A stretch of 33,273 bases of DNA, from positions 1 to 33,273 of the forward strand of contig JAKAME010000006.1 in NCBI GenBank assembly GCA_021813025.1, read 5' to 3'. This DNA comes from Microcaldota archaeon. Lineage in GTDB: Archaea; Micrarchaeota; Micrarchaeia; Anstonellales; Anstonellaceae. The stretch's first letter is position 1. Every line of letters starts with the position of its first letter. A model generated the notes under the pieces. That model was not told the DNA's origin and made no database searches. It saw only the letters and a program-made list of their open reading frames with translations. A program made the position numbers and the translations under genes. Positions 16,276 through 33,273 of the stretch are shown here, piece by piece.

Positions 16276-16827
16276 ATGGAATCATCGCACGAAGACCGCA
16301 TATTGCGGCTGACCCAGAGTCTGGAGCGCAAGGGGCTTTACCTCGTGGCGCGCATAGTGGTGCTGGCTCTGCTTGTCACCATCCTCTTCTTCCCCTCCGA
16401 GCTGCGCCTGCTGCTTGGCATCCCCATCCTGCTTGGAGTGATGCTGCTCGCCAACATCGCCCTTGCCATAATCCTGCTTGTTGATTTGCTCTACAGCCCC
16501 CAGAAAAGCATCGGAAGCCTGGCGGTCAAGTACATCTACCTCACCGTCTGCCTCATACTGGCGTACGGCCTGTTCTATTACGTCAACGCGAACTTCCTCC
16601 AGCCTCCCGGAGTGCACTACACCAGCACCTACGGCGCGCAGGAGCTTGAGTACGACGTGTTCTACATCAGCGGCTCGACCTATTTCACGGTCGGCTATGG
16701 GGACATCGCCCCGTTGGGGGTATATGCGCGCACCGCCTCGGTTGCGGAGGCCTTCACGGGCTGCCTTGTGAACCTTGTGGTGCTGGGCAAGGCCTTCCAG
16801 AGCCTGCGCCGCCTGACAGGCGGCTAA
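16276..16827 (+). CDS. Potassium/ion channel protein
   Basis: Selectivity filter STYFTVGYGDIAP with flanking TM helices; ATG 16276 preferred over 16213 because of the TATA position. Confidence 0.85.
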   Translation: MESSHEDRILRLTQSLERKGLYLVARIVVLALLVTILFFPSELRLLLGIPILLGVMLLANIALAIILLVDLLYSPQKSIGSLAVKYIYLTVCLILAYGLFYYVNANFLQPPGVHYTSTYGAQELEYDVFYISGSTYFTVGYGDIAPLGVYARTASVAEAFTGCLVNLVVLGKAFQSLRRLTGG

Positions 16828-20283: not shown

Positions 20284-20370
20284 GACTACATGTTATTTTT
20301 TATGTTTAAATATGTTTGCTTTGGAAAGAGGCGGCGCAAGCCATTAAAGAAGCATTGGTGTGGAGAACCC

Positions 20371-20895
20371 ATGCTCCTCTCGGACAGGGACATAAGGCAT
20401 GAGATATCGGCCCGGCGCATAGTCTTTACGCCCCGGCTGCAAGCCTCCCAAATCGGAGGCGCGTCGGTTGACCTCACCCTGGACGGCAAATTCTGGGCGT
20501 TCAAGACAGGGTATGCCAATTCGCACCGCCCTGTTGATTTGGACAAAGTGTCGTTTGCTGATGCCACGGAGGAAATGCGGCAAAAATCCATCATTCTTTC
20601 CCCCGGCCAAATAGTCTTGGGCATCACAAAGGAGAAAATCAGGCTGCCTGCAGACATAATGGGAAACCTTGAGGGCCGCTCGCGCTATGCGAGAATGGGT
20701 TTGGCTGTGCATATCACTTCAGCACTTGTGCAGCCCGGAAGCGACAACCACCAAGTGCTTGAAATCGTGAATTTCGCGCCGTTTCCTGTGAAAATTTCAG
20801 AAGGGATGAGGATAAGCCAGGTGGTTTTCCAATATCTGAAGCATCCGACCAGCAAGCCTTATGCGAAATTTGGGAAAGTGGCAAGAAAACAATAA
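20371..20895 (+). CDS. dcd: dCTP deaminase / dUTPase family
   Basis: MLLSDRDIRHEI, GGASVDLTLDGKFW, LSPGQIVLGITKEKIRLPADIMGNLEGRSRYARMGL, MRISQVVFQ. ORF also has an upstream ATG at 20290. Confidence 0.85.
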   Translation: MLLSDRDIRHEISARRIVFTPRLQASQIGGASVDLTLDGKFWAFKTGYANSHRPVDLDKVSFADATEEMRQKSIILSPGQIVLGITKEKIRLPADIMGNLEGRSRYARMGLAVHITSALVQPGSDNHQVLEIVNFAPFPVKISEGMRISQVVFQYLKHPTSKPYAKFGKVARKQ

Positions 20896-20914
20896 AACAA
20901 AATAAACGGCTCAA

Positions 20915-21751
20915 CTAGTTTTTGGCCACAACTCTTTTTGGGCTGGGCACTGCGGAGCCGGTCCGTTCTGTTTTGGCCGTGTCCATTTTCTTGATGGCCA
21001 TTTGCTTCCTCAGTTCCGACGCGATGGCCTCGGCGAGCTCCGGATCCTTGATTCGAGCGCGTTTGAGCGTTGCAAGGGCGTCCAGGTCTCTTGTGCGGCT
21101 GAACCCCCCCACCAACTCGTGCCGCACCTTGTAGGGCAGGTTCTCATTTTTCACGAAATAGATGGCCTGCTCACGAATGTCTGGGCATTCAGACATGCTG
21201 TCAATCATCGTGTTGGCTATATAGAGCCGATAGTCCAGCGGCGTTTCCTTGTTTCCGATACGCTGCGCGAAGAGCATTGGCAGGTCTGTGATTAGGACGG
21301 CGTTATATGATATGGTCCAATTGCCATCGGTCACGGGATATTCCTGCGCATCAAAAGCAACGTCGAGGATGGTCTGGGCCGCCAGATTGTAGTCATTCTT
21401 CATCTTCAGGCCGAAAACCATCTCAGCGGCGCCCTCCCGGACAGAGTTAGATTTGTCTTGGATGGCAAGCGAGATGAGCTTGCGGAGGGCCGGGCTGTCC
21501 GGCTTAGACCACAAGAAAGGGAGTACAGACATGAAACTCTCTTTTTGCGAAACTGAGAGCTGGCTGAAGAAATCCAAGACCGGTTCGATTGCCTTCTCTC
21601 CCGCCTTTTGCGCGTGTTGAAGGAAGATGGATATTCTCTTTTTTAGGCTGCCCATGCCAGACTCGAGGCTTGACTGGACGTAATTGAGCGACGTCTCCAG
21701 CTTCTGAAGCGTTGGGTCTATTTCGGGGGGAACGGTTTTCACAACAATCAC
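20915..21751 (-). CDS. HEAT/ARM-like helical repeat protein, orphan
   Basis: 278 aa; SLAIQDKSNSVREGAAEMVFGLK, CPDIREQAIYFVKNENLPYKVRHELVGGF. Confidence 0.55.
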   Translation of the reverse strand: MIVVKTVPPEIDPTLQKLETSLNYVQSSLESGMGSLKKRISIFLQHAQKAGEKAIEPVLDFFSQLSVSQKESFMSVLPFLWSKPDSPALRKLISLAIQDKSNSVREGAAEMVFGLKMKNDYNLAAQTILDVAFDAQEYPVTDGNWTISYNAVLITDLPMLFAQRIGNKETPLDYRLYIANTMIDSMSECPDIREQAIYFVKNENLPYKVRHELVGGFSRTRDLDALATLKRARIKDPELAEAIASELRKQMAIKKMDTAKTERTGSAVPSPKRVVAKN

Positions 21752-21807
21752 ATTTACATAGTATTAGATTAATATCCACAATAAAGCTTATAAGACTTGG
21801 GCCAAAT

Positions 21808-21840
21808 GCCAAGTTCTGGGAGGTGGCGAGAAAACAATAG
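21808..21840 (+). pseudogene. Orphan copy of dcd 3' end (AKFWEVARKQ*)
   Basis: gccaagttctgggaggtggcgagaaaacaatag versus dcd 20863-20895 gcgaaatttgggaaagtggcaagaaaacaataa; 8 of 10 residues identical, mostly third-position differences. Confidence 0.75.
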
Positions 21841-21868: not shown

Positions 21869-22546
21869 TTATTTCTGCTTGCGGCCAGCATAGGACATCC
21901 CGCCTCCCGGCACCGAAACGCTGATTTCCGCCCCCGGCAGGCCCTTGTGCGACATCCAATGGCCCAGCAAGTCTGCGCCGATTTTGACCAGCACTATAAT
22001 CGGGGGCCAGAAGTTTAGCAGCGCGCCCCCAATCACCACCAGATGCATGAAGATGACGCGCGGATAGGGGCTGAAGAATATCTGCTCGGCGGGCATGCTC
22101 TCGCGCTCCCCGCCCCAGATGAAATGGAAGAAGAACGACAGGGCGTGGCTGAGCAGCAGGACGAGCGCGCCCCAGAGCACGGCAGGCAGGACGTCGAGGC
22201 TTGCGCCAAGGAATGCCAGCAGAAACACCAGATGCACGAACATGAACAGGCCGAAATGCAGGGAAAAGAAGCCCATCAGCGCGAGGCGGCCGGCGGCCGA
22301 GGCGCCGTCGATGTCTCTGGTTGTTCCGCCCGCCGTAACCTGAAATGGCATGGGCTTCTTGGAACGGCTCATCCACAGCTTGAGAAGGGTGAAGAAGCCG
22401 ATGATGGCGCTCTCGCACCAGTAGATGAGCAGGTATTGCGACATCTCCCACTGGCCGCTCATGCCGGCGGAGAGAAGGGCGAGATTGGCTATGAGCAGGG
22501 CCAGAATCGAGAAGCCGAATGAAACCATGGGAGGATTGGCGCGCAA
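21869..22546 (-). CDS. Polytopic membrane protein (DUF6498-like)
   Basis: MVSFGFSILALLIANLALLSAGM...YLLIYWCESAIIGFFTLLKLWM...; several TM helices. Family name from memory. Confidence 0.65.
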   Translation of the reverse strand: MRANPPMVSFGFSILALLIANLALLSAGMSGQWEMSQYLLIYWCESAIIGFFTLLKLWMSRSKKPMPFQVTAGGTTRDIDGASAAGRLALMGFFSLHFGLFMFVHLVFLLAFLGASLDVLPAVLWGALVLLLSHALSFFFHFIWGGERESMPAEQIFFSPYPRVIFMHLVVIGGALLNFWPPIIVLVKIGADLLGHWMSHKGLPGAEISVSVPGGGMSYAGRKQK

Positions 22547-22563
22547 TGGCTTATAAAAATGGC

Positions 22564-22596
22564 TAAATCACGCTTGCGCCCGCAGCGCGCTGGATT
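22564..22596 (-). pseudogene. Orphan copy of infB 3' end (IQRAAGASVI*)
   Basis: 33 nt, 2 mismatches to 24961-24993, both synonymous. Confidence 0.85.
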
Positions 22597-23391
22597 TTAA
22601 CCCTGCTCCAGCAGGGCATCAAACGCCGCGCGGGCGGCCGGTCCAACTTTGCCGCCAAGCTCTTTTTCGGCAGCAACCACCAACTCCTTGTTGGTCGGGC
22701 CGGCCGGCACTAGCACCCCGCCACGGTTGACCAGCACGTCGCCGACGTAGAGGCCCCGCCCGTCGCCGTCGTCGCCGCAGTCGTCGCCGCGCAAGAACGA
22801 GCCAAAAGCGCTCCAAAGATTCAGATAGAGAGCCTGCTTGTCCGAGCGCTCGGAAGAGGCGCCTTTGGGCACGCCATCCGCTCCAACATACCAGCCATCT
22901 CTATCCACTCCAGTATACCAACCCTCGCTTGTTGGCAGGTTTTCGATGAATTGGATGAACTGGCGCATCTGGGGGGAGAATTCGCCGGAGATGCTCACGC
23001 TGCCATTATTGATGGTGCAGATAGAGGGATTGATGACAAAGAGCGCATTGGACGCCCCCAGTTGTTCTTTGGTGAAGAGTTTCTCTGCGTTTGGCACGAT
23101 AAGCTCGCCGTTTCCGACCACGGTGAGGGTGCAGGCCTTTGGGCCGGTCTTGCTGATGGAGTCAATAAGGGGAGTGCGGGTGTTGACCGAAAAGCCCAGG
23201 AAAAGGGCCATTTCGCGCATGATGGCCTTGAACTCTTCTGGGTTCTGTTTGGCGAACCGCTGCACCTCGGCCGGGCCGTACATCTTCTCGAAAAATTTCT
23301 GGCCGGGAGTCTGGTTGGCGGTAACGTTTCGCGCAAGATTGACGCCAGCCGCAACGCGCTCGGTTTTGAAGTTGGAAGCCATGAGATGCAC
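22597..23391 (-). CDS. Orphan hypothetical protein
   Basis: 264 aa; no family recognised; stop codon abuts infB-terminus copy. Confidence 0.55.
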   Translation of the reverse strand: MHLMASNFKTERVAAGVNLARNVTANQTPGQKFFEKMYGPAEVQRFAKQNPEEFKAIMREMALFLGFSVNTRTPLIDSISKTGPKACTLTVVGNGELIVPNAEKLFTKEQLGASNALFVINPSICTINNGSVSISGEFSPQMRQFIQFIENLPTSEGWYTGVDRDGWYVGADGVPKGASSERSDKQALYLNLWSAFGSFLRGDDCGDDGDGRGLYVGDVLVNRGGVLVPAGPTNKELVVAAEKELGGKVGPAARAAFDALLEQG

Positions 23392-23445
23392 CTCGTTCGA
23401 TGTATTTATTGTGTAGAATGGTGTTTAAATAAGCATCTATAAATC

Positions 23446-23468
23446 TAAATCACGCTGGCTCCGGCCGC
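23446..23468 (-). pseudogene. Orphan copy of infB 3' end (AAGASVI*)
   Basis: 23 nt, 3 mismatches to infB, all synonymous. Confidence 0.75.
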
Positions 23469-23473
23469 TCAAA

Positions 23474-24886
23474 TCACGCCGTACGAGCGAACTTCTCGCG
23501 CCGGATGGCCCTCTCGACCGTCTGTTCGGCCCTTATCTTGGCTGGCGCAAGCTTTAGCGCAACTTCATTATACCTGTCCTTGATGTCAGAGGCAAACAGC
23601 TTGACCCCAAGCCTTGCCATGCCCCTTGACTCCATTTTCGCAAGCTTGTCAAGGCCTTGGGATTTTACATAGGCGATTTGAGATTCCGGAATGATGCCGC
23701 TGTTGGTTGCCGTTATCAGCCATTCGAGCCCAAGGCCGGTGGCATGGTAAAGCTCAACCTCGCTTTCGGCCTTGTAAGCCATCCTTCCATACTGACCAAG
23801 GACATGCAGAGTGGTCTTGACCGGGTTGAGGTCGTTTTCAAACATGATGGGAACTGCGTCTGACTTCTGCTCCGTGCGGATGATCTGGGTGAAATACTGG
23901 CCCTGCACCTGCGGGTGGGCGAGATTTTCGTTTGTTATTTGGAATCCTAATTTTTCAAGCCCTGATTTGTATATTTCATCCAGAGGATAGGTCGAGCAGA
24001 TGACCAGCGCTTCGCCCACGATGGCATCATGGAGCTTTTGATAGGAGTTTGCTGAGGTTATGGATGGGTTTCCTGCAAAATAATGGTCCAAAACCTGCTG
24101 CACCTTGGAAGAGAGGACGTTTTCTTTTTGGCAATTCTCCCCAAGCTTGGTGGTGGAGAAAATGGCCTGTATCTGGGTGGTTTCGCCCCTGCTGACCAGC
24201 CCTGCCGCCGTGTCGATTTGGGAGATGGTTTCTGTGTTGGGAATGAGCTTGTTCTCGATGAAGACAATTTGGCGGTTTCGACCGAAGTTTTGAGCTCTAA
24301 TCGATAGGAACTTGTCGGTGATATCCTTTTCCATGATTGAATGAGAGTCCGAAAGGCCCGCATCTTTGAGGAGGTAGAAGATGACATTCTGGCCATTGCG
24401 GCCTTTAGATTTGGAAGCCCATTTGAAAAGAGCCCTCGCGCTGCCGACAGAGGTTTTGTTGATTTTTGGGTTTTGAAAATCTCTAGTAGTGAGTGAGAGC
24501 AGCTCTTCTGTTGAGAGATTCTTGACTTCTTTGTTGAACTTGTTCTTGAGGAATTCGTAGAGGCAGACCTTGCGGACTGCTTGGCTGTCGAAGCCTTTGA
24601 AGTCAGAATTGGTTATGTTGTGCTTACCGGCAAGGCCCGCGTCTTTGAAGATGAAAAATATGACATTCTGGCCATTGCGGTCTTTGGAGTTTGTGGCCCA
24701 CACATAAAGACTCGATGCGCGTCCTACAGAGGTTTTGTTGATTTTTGGGTTTTGAAAATCTCTACTAGTGAGCGAGAGCAACTCGTCTCTGGTGATGTCC
24801 TCGATTGGTTTGCCGAACAGGTTCTGGAGGAATTCGTAGAGGCAGGCCTGGCGATTTTCTGGATTATTGAACATAAACCTGGACAT
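23474..24886 (-). CDS. Orphan protein with two tandem N-terminal domain repeats
   Basis: 470 aa; RNGQNVIF..KDAGL and LLSLT.RDFQNPKINKTSVG repeated 93 codons apart. Confidence 0.65.
   Translation of the reverse strand: MSRFMFNNPENRQACLYEFLQNLFGKPIEDITRDELLSLTSRDFQNPKINKTSVGRASSLYVWATNSKDRNGQNVIFFIFKDAGLAGKHNITNSDFKGFDSQAVRKVCLYEFLKNKFNKEVKNLSTEELLSLTTRDFQNPKINKTSVGSARALFKWASKSKGRNGQNVIFYLLKDAGLSDSHSIMEKDITDKFLSIRAQNFGRNRQIVFIENKLIPNTETISQIDTAAGLVSRGETTQIQAIFSTTKLGENCQKENVLSSKVQQVLDHYFAGNPSITSANSYQKLHDAIVGEALVICSTYPLDEIYKSGLEKLGFQITNENLAHPQVQGQYFTQIIRTEQKSDAVPIMFENDLNPVKTTLHVLGQYGRMAYKAESEVELYHATGLGLEWLITATNSGIIPESQIAYVKSQGLDKLAKMESRGMARLGVKLFASDIKDRYNEVALKLAPAKIRAEQTVERAIRREKFARTA
24447..24798. 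repeat. Intragenic direct repeat, 279-bp period
   Basis: acagaggttttgttgatttttgggttttgaaaatctcta[g/c]tagtgag[t/c]gagagca at 24447 and 24726. Confidence 0.85.
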
Positions 24887-24959: not shown

Positions 24960-26735
24960 CTAAATCACGCTTGCGCCTGCCGCGCGCTGGATTTCGTCAA
25001 GCAAAACAAGCTCTTTCTCCGTAAGCAGGCCGGGCGAACTTCTCAGTCTTTCCGCCTGCTGCTTTGAAATAAACACATACAATGGCTCGCCCATCTTGAA
25101 AGTCTTGCCGCAATAGGGCTCGTCCATCGAAATTGCCGCCTGCCCTCTTTCTGAAAGCAAATCCAGGGACTTGCCCTTGTCCTGAATTGCTTTCACGACC
25201 CCAATCATCTGCCCGCTAGCAGTCATCAGCTGCGCCCCGGGCCTAAGCCTTCCTGCCTGCACTTCCACGCCGAAAATGGCCGGCTTGCACAAACGAAAGC
25301 AGCAGTTGGGCAGGGCAACTATGCGCGCAGGCAGGGCAAGCTCTGAGAGCGCCGAGCGCTGGTCTCGCTCCTTCTCCTCATTTACCCAAGCAAGATAATC
25401 TTCCAGCAGCTTGTAGACTATTTCAGACTGGAAGAGGTGAACGTTTCCGCGCTGGGATTCCTCCAGCGCTTCTGGCAGGAGAGGCACGTTGAATGCCAGC
25501 ACCACTCCAAGATACTTGTCCCCAAGCGAGGCTGCGCGGGCGGAAATCACGTCCTTCTTGCCCACAGGTCCCACTCCAAGAGAGCGGATGGGAATCTGCG
25601 CATTTTGCAAGAGGCGCATCAGCGCTTCGGCAGAGCCAAGAGTGTCAGCCTTCACCACCACGCCGGCCAGCGCTTCGTTGGTGACAAGAATTGACTTGAC
25701 CTGCGAGCTGATTTCCTGCTCGATTGCAGGCGTCAGCTCAAGGGCGCCCACCACCTCGATTGGCGAGCCGGCCAGCACGCCCTCAAGGCCTGGGGCGTAA
25801 ATCTTCACCCCTGCTGCGGCATGCACCTCTTCCACATACACATAGTGAGAGCTGGCCGACGGAGTCTCTCCGGGCCGGGGCGGGCGCAGAAGGCCGCGAA
25901 TCTTCACCACCCGCGCCCCTTCAGGCGTGCCGAACACAACAAAATCGTTGCGCCTCAGCGTGCCGTTGTACACTATGACGTCGATTGTGGTGCCGAGGCC
26001 CTTCTCCTCCTTCACTTCGAGAATGGAGCCTTTGGCCGGGCCTGACTCTGCCTCCTCAAGCTCGCGGCCCAAGTATTTCTGCGAAAGGCCGGCCAAAAAG
26101 AGCAGCAGCTCGGCCATGCCCTCGCCGGTTTTGGCTGAGCAGGGCACCATGACAAGCTGCTTTGTGAAATCAGACACGCGGTCGAAGCGCTCTGATTCCA
26201 GCCCCATTTCCGAGAGCCGGCCCACGAGCGCATAGAGCCTCTCCTCAAGCAGCTGCTGCACAGACGGGGGTTGGGAGGCGAGGGACTGCGAAAAGCTGGC
26301 AGTCGGCTGGCGCTTCCATCCCTGCAAAAGGTCGATTTTGTTCAGCGCTATGATAAAGGGCGTTTTCTGCGAGCGCAGGATTTTGATTGACTCGGCAGTC
26401 TGTGGCTGTATGCCCTGCATGATGTCTATTACCAGAATTGCGATGTCGGCAATGGAGCCGCCGCGCTCGCGCATGGATGTGAAGGCGGCATGGCCCGGCG
26501 TGTCGATGAAGAGAAGGCCAGGCACTTTCAACTGGCTCTCTGCCTGCGCGCGCAGCGGCCCGCAGGCCGAGAGTATGGCCTCGCGCGGCAGGTAGGAGGC
26601 GCCAATCATCTGGGTGATTCCGCCGGCCTCTCGCGCGGCAACCCCGGTGCCGCGTATGCGGTCAAGTATGGAGGTCTTGCCGTGGTCCACGTGCGCGAGG
26701 ATGCAGACAATGGGTGAGCGCAGCATGGGAAACAC
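24960..26735 (-). CDS. infB: Archaeal translation initiation factor aIF5B
   Basis: IVCILAHVDHGKTSILDRIRGTGVAAREAGGITQMIGASYLP; LLFIDTPGHAAFTSMRERGG; ALNKIDLLQGW. Start possibly ATG 26726. Confidence 0.95.
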   Translation of the reverse strand: MFPMLRSPIVCILAHVDHGKTSILDRIRGTGVAAREAGGITQMIGASYLPREAILSACGPLRAQAESQLKVPGLLFIDTPGHAAFTSMRERGGSIADIAILVIDIMQGIQPQTAESIKILRSQKTPFIIALNKIDLLQGWKRQPTASFSQSLASQPPSVQQLLEERLYALVGRLSEMGLESERFDRVSDFTKQLVMVPCSAKTGEGMAELLLFLAGLSQKYLGRELEEAESGPAKGSILEVKEEKGLGTTIDVIVYNGTLRRNDFVVFGTPEGARVVKIRGLLRPPRPGETPSASSHYVYVEEVHAAAGVKIYAPGLEGVLAGSPIEVVGALELTPAIEQEISSQVKSILVTNEALAGVVVKADTLGSAEALMRLLQNAQIPIRSLGVGPVGKKDVISARAASLGDKYLGVVLAFNVPLLPEALEESQRGNVHLFQSEIVYKLLEDYLAWVNEEKERDQRSALSELALPARIVALPNCCFRLCKPAIFGVEVQAGRLRPGAQLMTASGQMIGVVKAIQDKGKSLDLLSERGQAAISMDEPYCGKTFKMGEPLYVFISKQQAERLRSSPGLLTEKELVLLDEIQRAAGASVI

Positions 26736-26844: not shown

Positions 26845-27612
26845 CTAATCCTCGTCTTCCTCGCATTCGTAATCCACGCACCACTTCTCCGGGGGCGCGC
26901 AGTGGCCGTTGCCTATGCACTCCACGCAGATTTTGCCGCCGCCGGTGTCATAGCAGTGGTGCGACTGGCAGTCGTTGGGGTTGAAGCACGGAGCGCCGTT
27001 TGGAAGGCCGGTGAATCCGCCGAGGCCTGCGCCTGTCAGGGTGAAGTTCGGGCCGCAGCGGCCGATGAGCGGCTCGCGGCCTATCTCGCGCTGGGCCGGC
27101 AGGTCCAAATCCTGGCTGAGGTAGGTGAGGTTGAGGTTGAGCTCATACCCCTGATTTGGAGCGCACGAGCCGGCGAGGGAAAGATAGAGGTTCTTGCGCC
27201 GCCCCCCCTCAACGTCGAGCGGGCCGCTGATGTCGAGCGGGACGGCGTTGCGCGCGTCCATGCCGCTGCCGGTCACGTCGGCCTGAACCACCTGCATTAT
27301 GGTGGAGCGGGTGTTCATGAGCGAGAGCGTGAGCACGCCGTCCGACGAGAGCGAATGGTCGGTCACTGCGAACGGGGCTGCCTGTGAGCGCCAGTAAGAG
27401 TTCGACATCGAGGAGCGGGCGTCGTAGGAAGAGCCGGGCAGGGCGCCGATGAGCGCGATGACCACGAGCGCTACAATCAGCACCGCGGAGAGCAGGATGA
27501 GATACTCCGTGGCCCCCTGCGCCCTCAGGGCCTGGTTTGGGAAAACCGGAAGGGCGGGGATGCTGCCCGGAAGAGGCCTGCTGCCGCCGGGAGGGAGAGG
27601 GCGCGGAACCAT
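26845..27612 (-). CDS. Class III signal-peptide pilin-like protein with Cys-rich C-terminus
   Basis: QGATEYLILLSAVLIVALVVIALIGALPG; C-term CFNPNDCQSHHCYDTGGGKICVECIGNGHCAPPEKWCVDYEC. Confidence 0.85.
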   Translation of the reverse strand: MVPRPLPPGGSRPLPGSIPALPVFPNQALRAQGATEYLILLSAVLIVALVVIALIGALPGSSYDARSSMSNSYWRSQAAPFAVTDHSLSSDGVLTLSLMNTRSTIMQVVQADVTGSGMDARNAVPLDISGPLDVEGGRRKNLYLSLAGSCAPNQGYELNLNLTYLSQDLDLPAQREIGREPLIGRCGPNFTLTGAGLGGFTGLPNGAPCFNPNDCQSHHCYDTGGGKICVECIGNGHCAPPEKWCVDYECEEDED

Positions 27613-27657
27613 ATTGGATGGCCCACTACGGCCCCCTTTTTATGGATTGTTCCTCCA

Positions 27658-28167
27658 TTGCAATCCATGATGCTCAGCGGCCGGGCCATTAGGACGGGAA
27701 AGCACGTGGGCCTCACGCGCATCGAGGGGCAGTTCCAGCCCGCTGGCGTGGACTTGAGCGTGGAGAGCGTGTGGGTTTTCGAGGAGGCTGGCAGCATAGA
27801 CTTGGACAACAAGAAGAGAAAAATACCAAAATGCAAAAAGCTCGAATTCGGCCCCGACGAATTTGTCCATCTTTCTCCCGGCCCTTACAAACTTGTGTTC
27901 AACGAGCTTGTGGATGTGCCTTCCGACTGCGCCGGCATTGCGCGCAGCCGCTCCAGCCTCCTGCGCATGGGCGCGTCGGTGCAGACGGCCCTGTGGGACC
28001 CGGGCTACAAAGGCCGCTCTGAAGCCCTGCTGCTTGTCTCCAACCCAAGCGGGCTGGCGCTGCACATGCACGCGCGCGTGGCGCAGCTCTCGTTCATCCG
28101 CCTCGAGAAGCCCTCTGGCGAGACTTATGAGGGCAACTACCAGCATGAGAATATGGGCAGGAAATGA
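27658..28167 (+). CDS. dUTPase / dCTP deaminase superfamily protein
   Basis: FQPAGVDLSVESVWVF, LVDVPSDCAGIARSRSSLLRMGASVQTALWDPGYKGRSEALLLVSN. Confidence 0.8.
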   Translation: MQSMMLSGRAIRTGKHVGLTRIEGQFQPAGVDLSVESVWVFEEAGSIDLDNKKRKIPKCKKLEFGPDEFVHLSPGPYKLVFNELVDVPSDCAGIARSRSSLLRMGASVQTALWDPGYKGRSEALLLVSNPSGLALHMHARVAQLSFIRLEKPSGETYEGNYQHENMGRK

Positions 28168-28233
28168 CTTTTCGAGTTGTAGAAGTTGGATAAAAGAGTA
28201 ATGTATTTAAATACTGCCGACGGAAGTATAGGC

Positions 28234-29388
28234 ATGCGAACATGTGAAAAGGATAGCCGCAGGGCGGGCCGAAGGATAGGACAGGCCGCCGGGGACGGAG
28301 CTGGCGGACTGCGGGCAGTGACGCCTCTGGCCGGCGCCTTCTGTATTTTGGCTCTCCTTATGCTGGCCATGCTGCCCGTGCCGGCAGCCCTGAGCGGGGA
28401 TTACGCCTACCCCCTGCTTTCCAACAACGTGCGCTCCACCACGCCTGCCTTCAACAGCACCCTCGACATCATGCTGGTGCCCTTCTGCGAGAACGAGGAC
28501 CACATCTCGGTGCAGGTCACTGCAGGGGGGAAGCCTGTTGCCGGCGCCGAGGTGGCCCTCTACGATTATGGCGCAGGCCGCGTGCTGGACAGCTCCGTGT
28601 TCACCAACGCCGACGGATGGGCCTACTTCAAGCGCAGGCCGGCGGGCAAATATGACATGATTGCATCGACTGCCGACAATTCGACGGGCGGGCAGATTTA
28701 CTTCGACATCCCGCCCTGCCTCTCCCCCTCCTCCGGCGCCCCCTTCGGGCCCATGAACTGGACGGCCGGCAGGACGGAGGAGCTGCTGCTTGCGCAGGAT
28801 TATGCCGGCGGGCTGGCGCGCGAGTTTTACCTCGTCCTGCTTGCCGACGGGGAAACCGGGACAAGGGTGGTGCTGCGCGCGAACCTGAGCGGGGAGGGGG
28901 CGGGCTGGACGCTGATTGAGCGCATTCCAAACGGCATGGCCGTCAGCGAGCGGGCGCTCGGATTCGAGCGCGAGTATCCGCTAAGCGTGCGCACGGGGCA
29001 GGATGCCGAGCTGCGGTGGCGGCTGGGGGCGGGCGTGCCTGCGCAGGCGGAGCGCAGCTATGTGCTGCTGAGGCCCCTGAGCGCGGACATGGCGCGCCTG
29101 TGGGAGGCTCCCCTCCTCGAGCCCCTGGCGCGGAACTCAACGCCGAATGAGACGCAAACCGCGAATGCAACGGCGGGAGGTCCGGCCTCCAGCCGCTCGG
29201 CCGCAGACAACAGCTCGGGAGCCGCCAACACGACTTCCGATTCGGGCGCGGCTGGCGCGCCGATTCTGGGCGCCCTGGCGGGCATTGACACTGGCCAGGC
29301 GCTGATTGCCCTTGTTGCCGTGGCTGGCGCGGGCGCGGCTGGAGCGGCCCTTGTGCGCCGCGGGGCAGGGAATAAGAAGGAAGAATAA
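28234..29388 (+). CDS. Surface-anchored protein: signal peptide, Ig/carboxypeptidase-regulatory-like domain, S/T/N-rich stalk, C-terminal TM
   Basis: TATA-like gtatttaaatac 20-30 nt before ATG 28234; ILALLMLAMLPVPAAL; KPVAGAEVALYDYGAG; ALIALVAVAGAGAAGAALVRRG. ORF also starts at 28186. Confidence 0.7.
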   Translation: MRTCEKDSRRAGRRIGQAAGDGAGGLRAVTPLAGAFCILALLMLAMLPVPAALSGDYAYPLLSNNVRSTTPAFNSTLDIMLVPFCENEDHISVQVTAGGKPVAGAEVALYDYGAGRVLDSSVFTNADGWAYFKRRPAGKYDMIASTADNSTGGQIYFDIPPCLSPSSGAPFGPMNWTAGRTEELLLAQDYAGGLAREFYLVLLADGETGTRVVLRANLSGEGAGWTLIERIPNGMAVSERALGFEREYPLSVRTGQDAELRWRLGAGVPAQAERSYVLLRPLSADMARLWEAPLLEPLARNSTPNETQTANATAGGPASSRSAADNSSGAANTTSDSGAAGAPILGALAGIDTGQALIALVAVAGAGAAGAALVRRGAGNKKEE

Positions 29389-29416
29389 AGAGAATTTTTT
29401 TTCTGCTTCTCGACTT

Positions 29417-29896
29417 CTACTGGCAGATGACCGCGACAGGCGTCTCGCTGGCCTGCACCTTGCCAATCAGCGGGTCGTCGTCGTAGATTATGCGCACGGT
29501 GTAGAAGTAGGCCTGCCCTGTGCGGCCTGCGCAGGTGGGCATGGACGCGCCGCCGCCGATGACCATCACCCGCTTCTGGCCGGCCGTGAAAATCGTCTGG
29601 CTGGCGTTCGTGAACGAGACTCCGTCGCTGAAGCTGAGGTTGATTGAGTCCATCACCAGCTCGTGCGCGAGGTTGTTCTGCACCACAAGCGAGATGTTGG
29701 ACTGGCCGCTCTGCGCCGCGTCCCCGATGCCGAAAGGCTGCGCCGACATCCAGTAGGCGCGCGACTGCGCGTTGGACAGGCCGCCGGCCTGCGGGAAGAA
29801 GCCGCCGATGAGCGAGAGCACCACCAGCGCTATCACAAGAACCACTGAGAGGATGACGAGATATTCGGTGGAGCCCTGGCCTTTGGCAAAAATCAT
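29417..29896 (-). CDS. Class III signal-peptide pilin-like protein
   Basis: MIFAKGQGSTEYLVILSVVLVIALVVLSLIGGFFP. Confidence 0.85.
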   Translation of the reverse strand: MIFAKGQGSTEYLVILSVVLVIALVVLSLIGGFFPQAGGLSNAQSRAYWMSAQPFGIGDAAQSGQSNISLVVQNNLAHELVMDSINLSFSDGVSFTNASQTIFTAGQKRVMVIGGGASMPTCAGRTGQAYFYTVRIIYDDDPLIGKVQASETPVAVICQ

Positions 29897-29909
29897 CAAA
29901 TCGCCAATC

Positions 29910-30533
29910 CTAATCTGAGCACTGCACATATAATGGTTTGGCCCCGAGCTCGGAGAGGCCGCCGACCTGCCCCGCAGTGTAGCTGATGCTGACTTCGTAC
30001 GCAAGGGTCTGCCTGCCCGCGCAGGATTCGGTGGTGAAATCCACCTGCGTGCGGCCGCCTGAAGGCAGGCTGACGGGCAGGGAGGTTGATGGAGTGTAGA
30101 TTGCAGACGGGCGAGTGGAGAGGTTGATTCCCCCCACCCGCACCGTGAGCGGGGCGGAATTTACGAGGATGATGGAGAGGGAGGAGCCGGTCTGCTTGAA
30201 GTCTGCGATTTGCAGCGGGCTGGCGGCGGAGGCCCACCAGCGGGCCGAATCCCCGGCCTGCGCCCCGTAGGAGAAGGAGGGAAAGAGGCCGAAGGCCCCG
30301 AGTATGATGAGGGCCAGCGTCAGCACGACGGCCAGCACTATGAGGTATTCGGTTGATGCCTGCGCCCTCGCACATGGGGGGAGGGCGGAATGTGGCGCGC
30401 TCGGCCCAGAGCCGGATGGGGCCGGCTGCCCCGGCTTGGGGCTGGAGAAGGCGGGAAAACAGGGCGGACGGAACCCGAAAGCTTGATGCGGTCCCGCAGG
30501 CATGGGAAGACCAGAGCGGCTCATTCTATGCAT
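29910..30533 (-). CDS. Class III signal-peptide pilin-like protein
   Basis: CARAQASTEYLIVLAVVLTLALIILGAFGLFP; start codon uncertain (unusually long leader). Confidence 0.75.
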   Translation of the reverse strand: MHRMSRSGLPMPAGPHQAFGFRPPCFPAFSSPKPGQPAPSGSGPSAPHSALPPCARAQASTEYLIVLAVVLTLALIILGAFGLFPSFSYGAQAGDSARWWASAASPLQIADFKQTGSSLSIILVNSAPLTVRVGGINLSTRPSAIYTPSTSLPVSLPSGGRTQVDFTTESCAGRQTLAYEVSISYTAGQVGGLSELGAKPLYVQCSD

Positions 30534-30979
30534 GGCCCAATCAGCGGCTTGACGCCGGAGAAGCGGTTGTTGAGGTTGGAGGAGGCGTAAGCGATGGACA
30601 CGTTGGGGTATTCAAAGTAGTCGTAGGTGCTGGCGTTGCAGGCCCGCAGGCCGGCCAGCGCCACGGTCTTGACGGCTCCGCCGTTGAAGATTATGCCGGT
30701 GGTGTTGGAGGCGTTGCTCAGCGAAACATTGGTCAGCGTCAGGCGCTCTGTAACCATGTTCTTCATGGTCAGCGTCATGGTGCTGCCCTGCTGCTGCCAG
30801 TCCAGGATGGCGAACGGCTGGGTCGAGCTCCAGTACTGCCTTGTCTCGGACATGCGCGCGTCGCCGCCGAAAGCGGGGAAGGCTCCCAAGAGGGCTATGG
30901 CCACCAGCGCGACGATGAGCACCACGGCGAGGATAACCAGATATTCCGAGGCGCCCTGGCCCCGACGCGTGTCTTGCAT
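30521..30979 (-). CDS. Class III signal-peptide pilin-like protein
   Basis: MQDTRRGQGASEYLVILAVVLIVALVAIALLGAFP. Confidence 0.88.
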   Translation of the reverse strand: MQDTRRGQGASEYLVILAVVLIVALVAIALLGAFPAFGGDARMSETRQYWSSTQPFAILDWQQQGSTMTLTMKNMVTERLTLTNVSLSNASNTTGIIFNGGAVKTVALAGLRACNASTYDYFEYPNVSIAYASSNLNNRFSGVKPLIGPCIE

Positions 30980-31036
30980 TGCATCACCCTGAACGTACGC
31001 TGGACTTATGAAAGAAAAGAAAAAAGGAAAACGGGC

Positions 31037-31534
31037 TCAGGCGCACTTGCCCAGGATGGTCTTGGTGCCGTACTGCCTCTGTCCGGGGATTGTGCTGTCG
31101 TAGGTGACGTTCACCGAGTATTCGTAGATGGTTCCCGAGGTGCAGTTGGCGCCGCTTCCGTCAGTCAGATAGACCGTCTTGGTTTCTCCCGAGCCTATGT
31201 AGGGGGTGTTCGGGGTGGCCACGCCGGCTATGGAGAGGTTGGCGCTGTTGTTGAAGAAGACGCCCCCCGAGACGGAGATGTTGACAATCTTCAGCTGCTC
31301 GGTCTGCACGTTGCGCATGACCATTGTGAGGTTGTTGTCGGTCTGGGCGTGCTCAATGATTTGGAACGGGCTTGCGCCGCGCCAGTAGGAGTCCGACTCG
31401 GACTTCTTGGCGTCATATGACAGGCCGGGGAAGAAGCCCAGCAGGGCAATCGCGACCATCGCGACAATCAGCACGACGGCCAGGAGCACCAGATACTCGG
31501 TCGCGCCTTGGCCTTTCTTGAATTTGAACGACAT
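31037..31534 (-). CDS. Class III signal-peptide pilin-like protein
   Basis: From ATG 31534: MSFKFKKGQGATEYLVLLAVVLIVAMVAIALLGFFP. Confidence 0.88.
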   Translation of the reverse strand: MSFKFKKGQGATEYLVLLAVVLIVAMVAIALLGFFPGLSYDAKKSESDSYWRGASPFQIIEHAQTDNNLTMVMRNVQTEQLKIVNISVSGGVFFNNSANLSIAGVATPNTPYIGSGETKTVYLTDGSGANCTSGTIYEYSVNVTYDSTIPGQRQYGTKTILGKCA

Positions 31535-31781
31535 GGCTGCATCCCTCCATCGGAGCTTTCGACGGGATATAACGGCATAGATTATATAAAGGTTTCGAAA
31601 AAATCCCCCCGACGCTGCTTCGGGGTGAAAAGCCGGGCTTGCGCGCGCCCGGCGGAAGATTTGCGCGGGGCGTAAAAAGCAACTGGGCATGCGGAAGAGG
31701 CCGGGTGGATAGACAAAACAGTGGAAAGTCACCCTGCAAAACCCCTAATAAGCGCGTGCAGAAACCAGGATAGGTGAGCGT

Positions 31782-32935: not shown

Positions 32936-33273
32936 ACCGGATGTGGTAGAAAGGTTTAGTAGCGGCTGGCTGAAAGGCTCGCGTGAGCTTGCCTCTTACA
33001 CCACCGCCCTATCGAACGGATCTGCTATCCGCCCTTAAACCACCTCGTTTTGAGACCCGCTTCGACCTTAGATGCTTTCAGGTCTTATCGGATAGCGCGT
33101 AGCGGCCCGGCGGTGCTTTTCACAACCGGTAGACCAGAGGCGCCGAACCCAAGTTCCTCGCGTACTCATGGGTTCTTCCTCTCAGGTGGCAACACTCCCA
33201 GTAGATACTACCGAACTGTCTCGCGACGTTCTGAACCCAGCTCATGTAGGTCTTTAATGGATGAACAACCCAA
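32936..33273 (-). rRNA. 23S rRNA, 3'-terminal portion, truncated by window edge
   Basis: - strand: gagctgggttcagaacgtcgcgagacagttcgg (H89-H93), gagtacgcgaggaac (sarcin-ricin loop), cctgaaagcatctaag (H97). 3' boundary approximate. Confidence 0.93.

Follow-up and report, generated by a model that had tools for sequence, protein, structure and literature searches.

Prophage e14 integrates in the icd gene of E. coli and leaves a 163-bp icd′ duplicate (PMC6379469). Homology-facilitated illegitimate recombination has been proposed for the C-terminal displacement seen in Rhs/T6SS systems, in which orphan modules are found (PMC5361080). Archaeal integrated elements, including casposons at ef-2, occupy the 3′-distal parts of protein-coding genes (PMC6563490).

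Here we analyze a window of 33,273 nt, the whole of contig C26 in a draft archaeal genome (G000; 1.34 Mb in 99 contigs), whose dCTP deaminase gene, dcd, is 84–87% identical in relatives that are listed as Candidatus Micrarchaeota or as an uncultured archaeon. In this genome, conserved genes are followed, beyond an inserted ORF, by a second, stranded copy of their own 3′ end. As at icd, incoming DNA would give the gene a new end, the old end lies stranded on the far side, and the gene stays functional. However, e14 is one phage, a large element with one target and its own integrase, whereas in G000 there are several unrelated targets and single-ORF inserts, in which no integrase was found. As in the Rhs/T6SS case, a module would enter by one-sided homology, pushing the old 3′ part and the DNA that follows it downstream, and arrays form; there, though, the 3′ part is a variable toxin domain and function changes, whereas here the tail is conserved, a new gene lies behind it and the targets are housekeeping genes. 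The use of the 3′ end of conserved archaeal genes and the direct repeats around the insert recall the archaeal integrated elements, but those are multi-gene, have an integrase or casposase, and show short att sites or exact target-site duplications. Single genes arrayed and separated by a recurring sequence are also typical of integron cassettes; the recurring sequence here is the neighboring gene’s own tail rather than a folded attC site, cargo lies in both orientations, and no IntI was seen.

We did not find this pattern described in Micrarchaeota in the open-access literature. To our knowledge, little has been established about how small-genome archaea gain lineage-specific orphan genes. 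A stranded tail records such a gain legibly, marking the addition itself, the gene that it followed and the side on which it took place. From the two tails the insertion can be dated and perhaps its donor traced, and any genome can be screened for the scar.

A second dcd tail beyond an orphan gene

The dcd gene (20290..20895, + strand; Pfam DCD, E=1.3e-38) has orthologues in 47 of 59 relatives; its true start is probably near 20370. It converges on infB, encoding aIF5B (24960..26735, − strand; Pfam GTP_EFTU, GTP_EFTU_D4, and IF-2), across a 4,064-nt gap in which four genes lie, together with one stranded tail of dcd and two of infB. The dcd frame ends with AKFGKVARKQ and a stop at 20895, and an orphan segment on the same strand, AKFWEVARKQ and a stop, ends at 21840. 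An earlier note had claimed from these letters that the 3′ end of dcd is duplicated beyond an orphan gene. Its sequence and coordinates are correct, and the repeat proved slightly longer than it stated, at 39 nt: the working tail (20857..20895, + strand), reading PYAKFGKVARKQ and a stop, and the stranded tail (21802..21840, + strand), reading PNAKFWEVARKQ and a stop, are identical at 29/39 positions, with 7/10 differences at third codon positions.

The brevity of the dcd repeat and the use of draft metagenome assemblies would speak for chance similarity or an assembly artefact. Among about 1.6 million placements on both strands of 807 kb of G000, the stranded tail was the top non-self match, five matches clear of the next (24/39). 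Shuffling the 4,064-nt gap 1,000 times, with dinucleotides preserved, never gave a score above 25. The remnant thus outscores every shuffled and every other genomic window scanned, the comparison by which the note proposed that its claim be judged, and chance similarity is rejected for this repeat. We also paired every gene with the downstream region of another gene; the best stop-anchored codon score, self-matches apart, was 45, versus 61 for dcd and 70 for infB. The same stop-codon pattern recurs in independent assemblies, one of them a 920-kb contig, which argues against an artefact. We regard chance or artefact as extremely improbable.

From dcd to infB, the gap contains the HEAT-like ORF, the dcd tail, a DUF6498 gene, an infB tail, a 264-aa ORF, a second infB tail, and a 470-aa ORF, with all four genes on the − strand. 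The first cargo, the 278-aa HEAT-like orphan ORF between the dcd tails (20915..21751, − strand), has no homologue in the 59 relatives and no Pfam match above cut-off. The DUF6498 gene (21869..22546, − strand; Pfam DUF6498, E=8.5e-37) is missing from the empty sites described below, and no tail copy of its own was assigned to it. The distal stranded infB tail (22563..22598, − strand), KIQRAAGASVI and a stop, matches the working infB tail (24960-24995) at 33/36 positions. The second cargo, the 264-aa orphan ORF (22597..23391, − strand), separates it from the proximal copy (23445..23468, − strand), AAGASVI and a stop, which matches at 21/24 positions with three synonymous differences. The third cargo, the 470-aa ORF (23474..24886, − strand), adjoins infB; four further genomes (G003, G008, G011, and G017) carry relatives of it at other positions, and no tail echoes were seen beside these relatives in the short loci examined. 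Neither this ORF nor the HEAT-like one had relatives among viral contigs. The 470-aa protein carries two tandem repeats of ~74 aa (window 24353-24574 and 24632-24853; DNA 79% identical), and its G003 relative belongs to an open frame of 714 codons that contains more repeats.

Empty sites in related genomes

The earlier note asked whether an uninterrupted locus has a single terminus, and such loci are found in both the genus and the family. In G003, of the same genus, dcd and infB are convergent with 11 nt between their stops and have one tail each. In L244, of the same genus (isolate LFW-29, dcd 87% identical), the stops lie about 1 nt apart, again with one tail each. Three genomes of the same family (G004, G009, and G013) have a dcd–infB gap of 1–13 nt and one tail per gene. 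None of these insert-free relatives keeps both dcd copies. G002 has one ORF in the gap, and a tail copy at the level seen in G000 is absent there. In G015 the gap is only 75 nt, yet an infB-tail-like stretch (24/33) lies beside the dcd stop.

Taken together, the empty sites with single tails and the filled gaps indicate that the dcd–infB junction is a repeated insertion site and that double tails accompany insertion. As with a tyrosine-recombinase integrative element at a gene 3′ end, the insert lies between direct repeats made from the end of the target gene, and relatives have the site unoccupied. A search for a donor of the tails and cargo turned up no genome in which the same gene is followed by the same cargo. 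Even where two convergent essential genes abut, as this locus shows, genes can be added without harm to either.

The same anatomy at other conserved genes

In a nucleotide-only scan of G000, which compared the last 33 nt of each ORF with its downstream 5 kb, the same anatomy appeared at three further conserved genes: Kae1/TsaD, HerA, and a DUF7523/ACT-like gene. Five conserved genes, including dcd and infB, therefore carry displaced tails. Kae1/TsaD has a 69-nt tail and an insert with a 174-aa ORF, the HerA insert holds a 236-aa ORF, and that of the DUF7523/ACT-like gene an ORF of about 230 aa. A second stranded HerA tail lies 1,546 nt downstream, and the second interval contains a minus-strand ORF; HerA and infB are thus arrays, with two inserts and two stranded tails each. 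All seven intervals between tail copies are mostly filled by essentially one ORF, and cargo occurs in both orientations. The cargo ORFs had no Pfam match above cut-off and no Pfam integrase. A general search of the G000 genome for integrase families gave one sub-threshold Phage_integrase match and no IntI.

The reading of dcd as a second instance of the infB pattern was thus borne out and extended. The common length of 33 nt that the note gave to the repeats was not: tail lengths span about 24–70 nt in G000 and reach 150 nt in a relative. Counts here and below refer to samples of about 807 kb of G000, 325 kb of G002, and 400 kb of G008. As a control, 250 kb of E. coli with 232 ORFs gave only three stop-anchored matches, all of them fimbrial paralogues (yadK/L/M), and no orphan tail; this sample is too small to prove enrichment in Micrarchaeota.

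Divergence between tail copies

Across the seven cargo-bearing pairs, differences number 10, 12, and 36 at codon positions 1, 2, and 3, respectively (36/58 at the third; P=7e-6 versus one third). The six changes in the first HerA pair are all synonymous, the DUF7523 pair shows a switch of serine codon class (TCC/AGT), and stop codons are exchanged between tail copies. Codon-level scans favor synonymous differences, and these counts should be read with that caution; the nucleotide-only scan recovered the same five genes. The third-position bias indicates that, until they were united, the two copies had evolved in separate lineages and for most of that time as the ends of functioning genes. For the cargo-bearing cases, it rules out target-site duplication or slippage followed by drift. 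It is also at odds with a casposon or transposon, whose flanks would be copies of one target, identical at insertion and drifting only afterwards.

Geometry and diagnostic sites at three loci suggest that the stranded tail is native and the working tail incoming. The stranded HerA tail of G000 has GAG and ATA, as in G003; that of G008 has GAG and TGA, as in G011; and the stranded infB tail of L262 has EEK, EEIKK, and TGA, as in L260 and partly in L265. From these sequence comparisons, the stranded copy is likely the native end and the working end likely came with the insert. At dcd, the stranded tail has GCG in common with three sisters and TAG with two; matches to the sisters are 25–30/39 for the stranded copy and 31–33/39 for the working copy, and the sites are ambiguous on direction. 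The diagnostic sites of a glutamine synthetase pair in G008 are evenly split between the copies.

Cargo-less echoes and a dispersed repeat

Cargo-less orphan tail copies, stop-anchored and set off by short spacers, were present in G000, G002, and G008, and in the more distant Micrarchaeota L262 and L250. Two in G000 have spacers of 8 nt (L108; four synonymous codon differences and no others) and 0 nt (L086; synonymous differences six to one). In G008, an echo reading LAPRIDVE and a stop has a spacer of 10 nt and synonymous differences of five to none, and the glutamine synthetase echo spans 50 codons (synonymous 19 to 1) with a spacer of 70 nt. The infB echo of L262 covers 36 codons (spacer 178 nt) and the L250 echo 11 codons (spacer 93 nt). 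The glutamine synthetase copies are identical over their first 43 nt and diverge only after, and the L262 infB copies over their first 20 nt; both patterns are crossover-like. Beyond the stranded glutamine synthetase tail, the sequence resembles the native downstream region of the sister genome G011. The shortest echoes may be ordinary tandem duplications: that at L135 in G002 is an exact 21-nt tandem repeat, and three echoes at HerA in G008 repeat one unit with similar spacers.

Whole-gene paralogues of similar appearance (L104, L115, L103, L124 on the plus strand, and G008 at 26320 and 331825) were set aside on inspection or by long shared upstream similarity. A weak echo at L208 was not counted, as it belongs to a dispersed palindromic repeat of ~75 nt (TCAGGARGA..AACTGGGGAGGGGGGC..GCCCCCCTCCGCGGTT). 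By a strict pattern this repeat has nine copies in the 807 kb (L107:5831-5866, L117:120-156, L218:590-625 and 16387-16422, L049:10026-10058, L212:16931-16977, L208:3679-3713, L090:1308-1348, and L106:197-248), and a copy lies in G008 (C4:324562-324594). Several copies lie 4-90 nt from a gene 3′ end, and in G008 one occupies the spacer that separates glutamine synthetase from the stranded copy of its tail. The repeat had no Rfam match at the gathering score in the loci tested.

How the tails may have been displaced

We favor, as reasonably probable, displacement of the gene tail by incoming DNA from a related lineage. Such DNA would carry the end of the same housekeeping gene and, beyond it, usually one gene, and would recombine into the resident gene’s tail. 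The incoming tail would complete the reading frame, with the cargo gene next, and the resident’s own last 8–50 codons would be stranded on the far side, decaying there; repeat events at one gene would yield the arrays at infB and HerA. On one side the DNA could have entered by a crossover anchored in homology; on the other, immediately before the resident tail, the join could have been illegitimate or have used short homology, in the manner proposed for T6SS and Rhs C-terminal displacement (PMC5361080). As in C-terminal displacement, the gene body is continuous with a new 3′ end and the old 3′ end lies beyond the new DNA. What we observed are repeated tails, empty sites, inserts of one ORF each, arrays, and a coding-type divergence of the copies; we infer in addition that the tail now in use came in with the insert, and how its two sides were joined. 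That each insert holds essentially a single ORF counts against this explanation, since random illegitimate joining would be expected to leave a less orderly picture. Selection may explain why the scar is seen at gene ends, since only there would an aligned insertion leave the gene whole. Displacement behind essential genes such as those for dCTP deaminase and aIF5B looks like a recurrent route of gene gain without breaking the neighbor.

The main alternative is site-specific integration at gene 3′ ends, in which a recombinase inserts circles with a tail-mimicking attachment site and the cassettes are single genes mobilized in trans or remnants of larger elements. The geometry is the same as that of e14 at icd (PMC6379469), and archaeal elements use 3′-distal parts of coding genes at 14/68 mapped sites in Thaumarchaeota (PMC6563490). 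Both the arrays and the single-ORF inserts look cassette-like, and some relatives have tyrosine recombinases. Yet the tail sequences in one genome are five unrelated ones, no insert contains an integrase, the sub-threshold Phage_integrase match is the only one in a 79%-complete genome, and cargo-less echoes with spacers of 0–35 nt are hard to derive by element decay. We therefore consider site-specific integration rather unlikely. Local duplication of the gene end by slippage, tandem or target-site duplication, later split by insertion of a gene and involving no incoming tail, would suit the exact tandem repeat in G002 and the similarly spaced HerA echoes in G008. It is disfavored already for the cargo-bearing cases, because an untranslated copy would not be expected to keep its amino acids: the third-position bias extends across pairs, and synonymous changes prevail at HerA (6 to 0), L108 (4 to 0), and glutamine synthetase (19 to 1). 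As a general explanation it is quite improbable.

Tail displacement from related lineages also allows a bolder, tentative extension, which we think has a smaller chance of being right. Micrarchaeota might swap single genes as tail-anchored cassettes, each consisting of a cargo gene and the last 24–150 nt of a conserved gene, moving between related cells. The tail would be the only recombination address, the host gene would be restored on entry, and cassettes would stack into arrays. If so, they would be an integrase-free counterpart of integrons, with the ends of housekeeping genes as attachment sites.

Other features of the window

Beyond infB, the window contains a second, distant dCTP deaminase/dUTPase-like ORF (27658-28167, + strand), 26% identical to dcd. 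On the opposite strand, five related genes lie in a row (26845-31732, − strand), each with an N-terminal QGATEYL, QGSTEYL, QASTEYL, or QGASEYL motif followed by a hydrophobic stretch. By eye these resemble pilin-like class III signal peptides, and four of the genes share an 84-nt repeat. The contig end falls inside an archaeal 23S rRNA gene (32937-33273, − strand).
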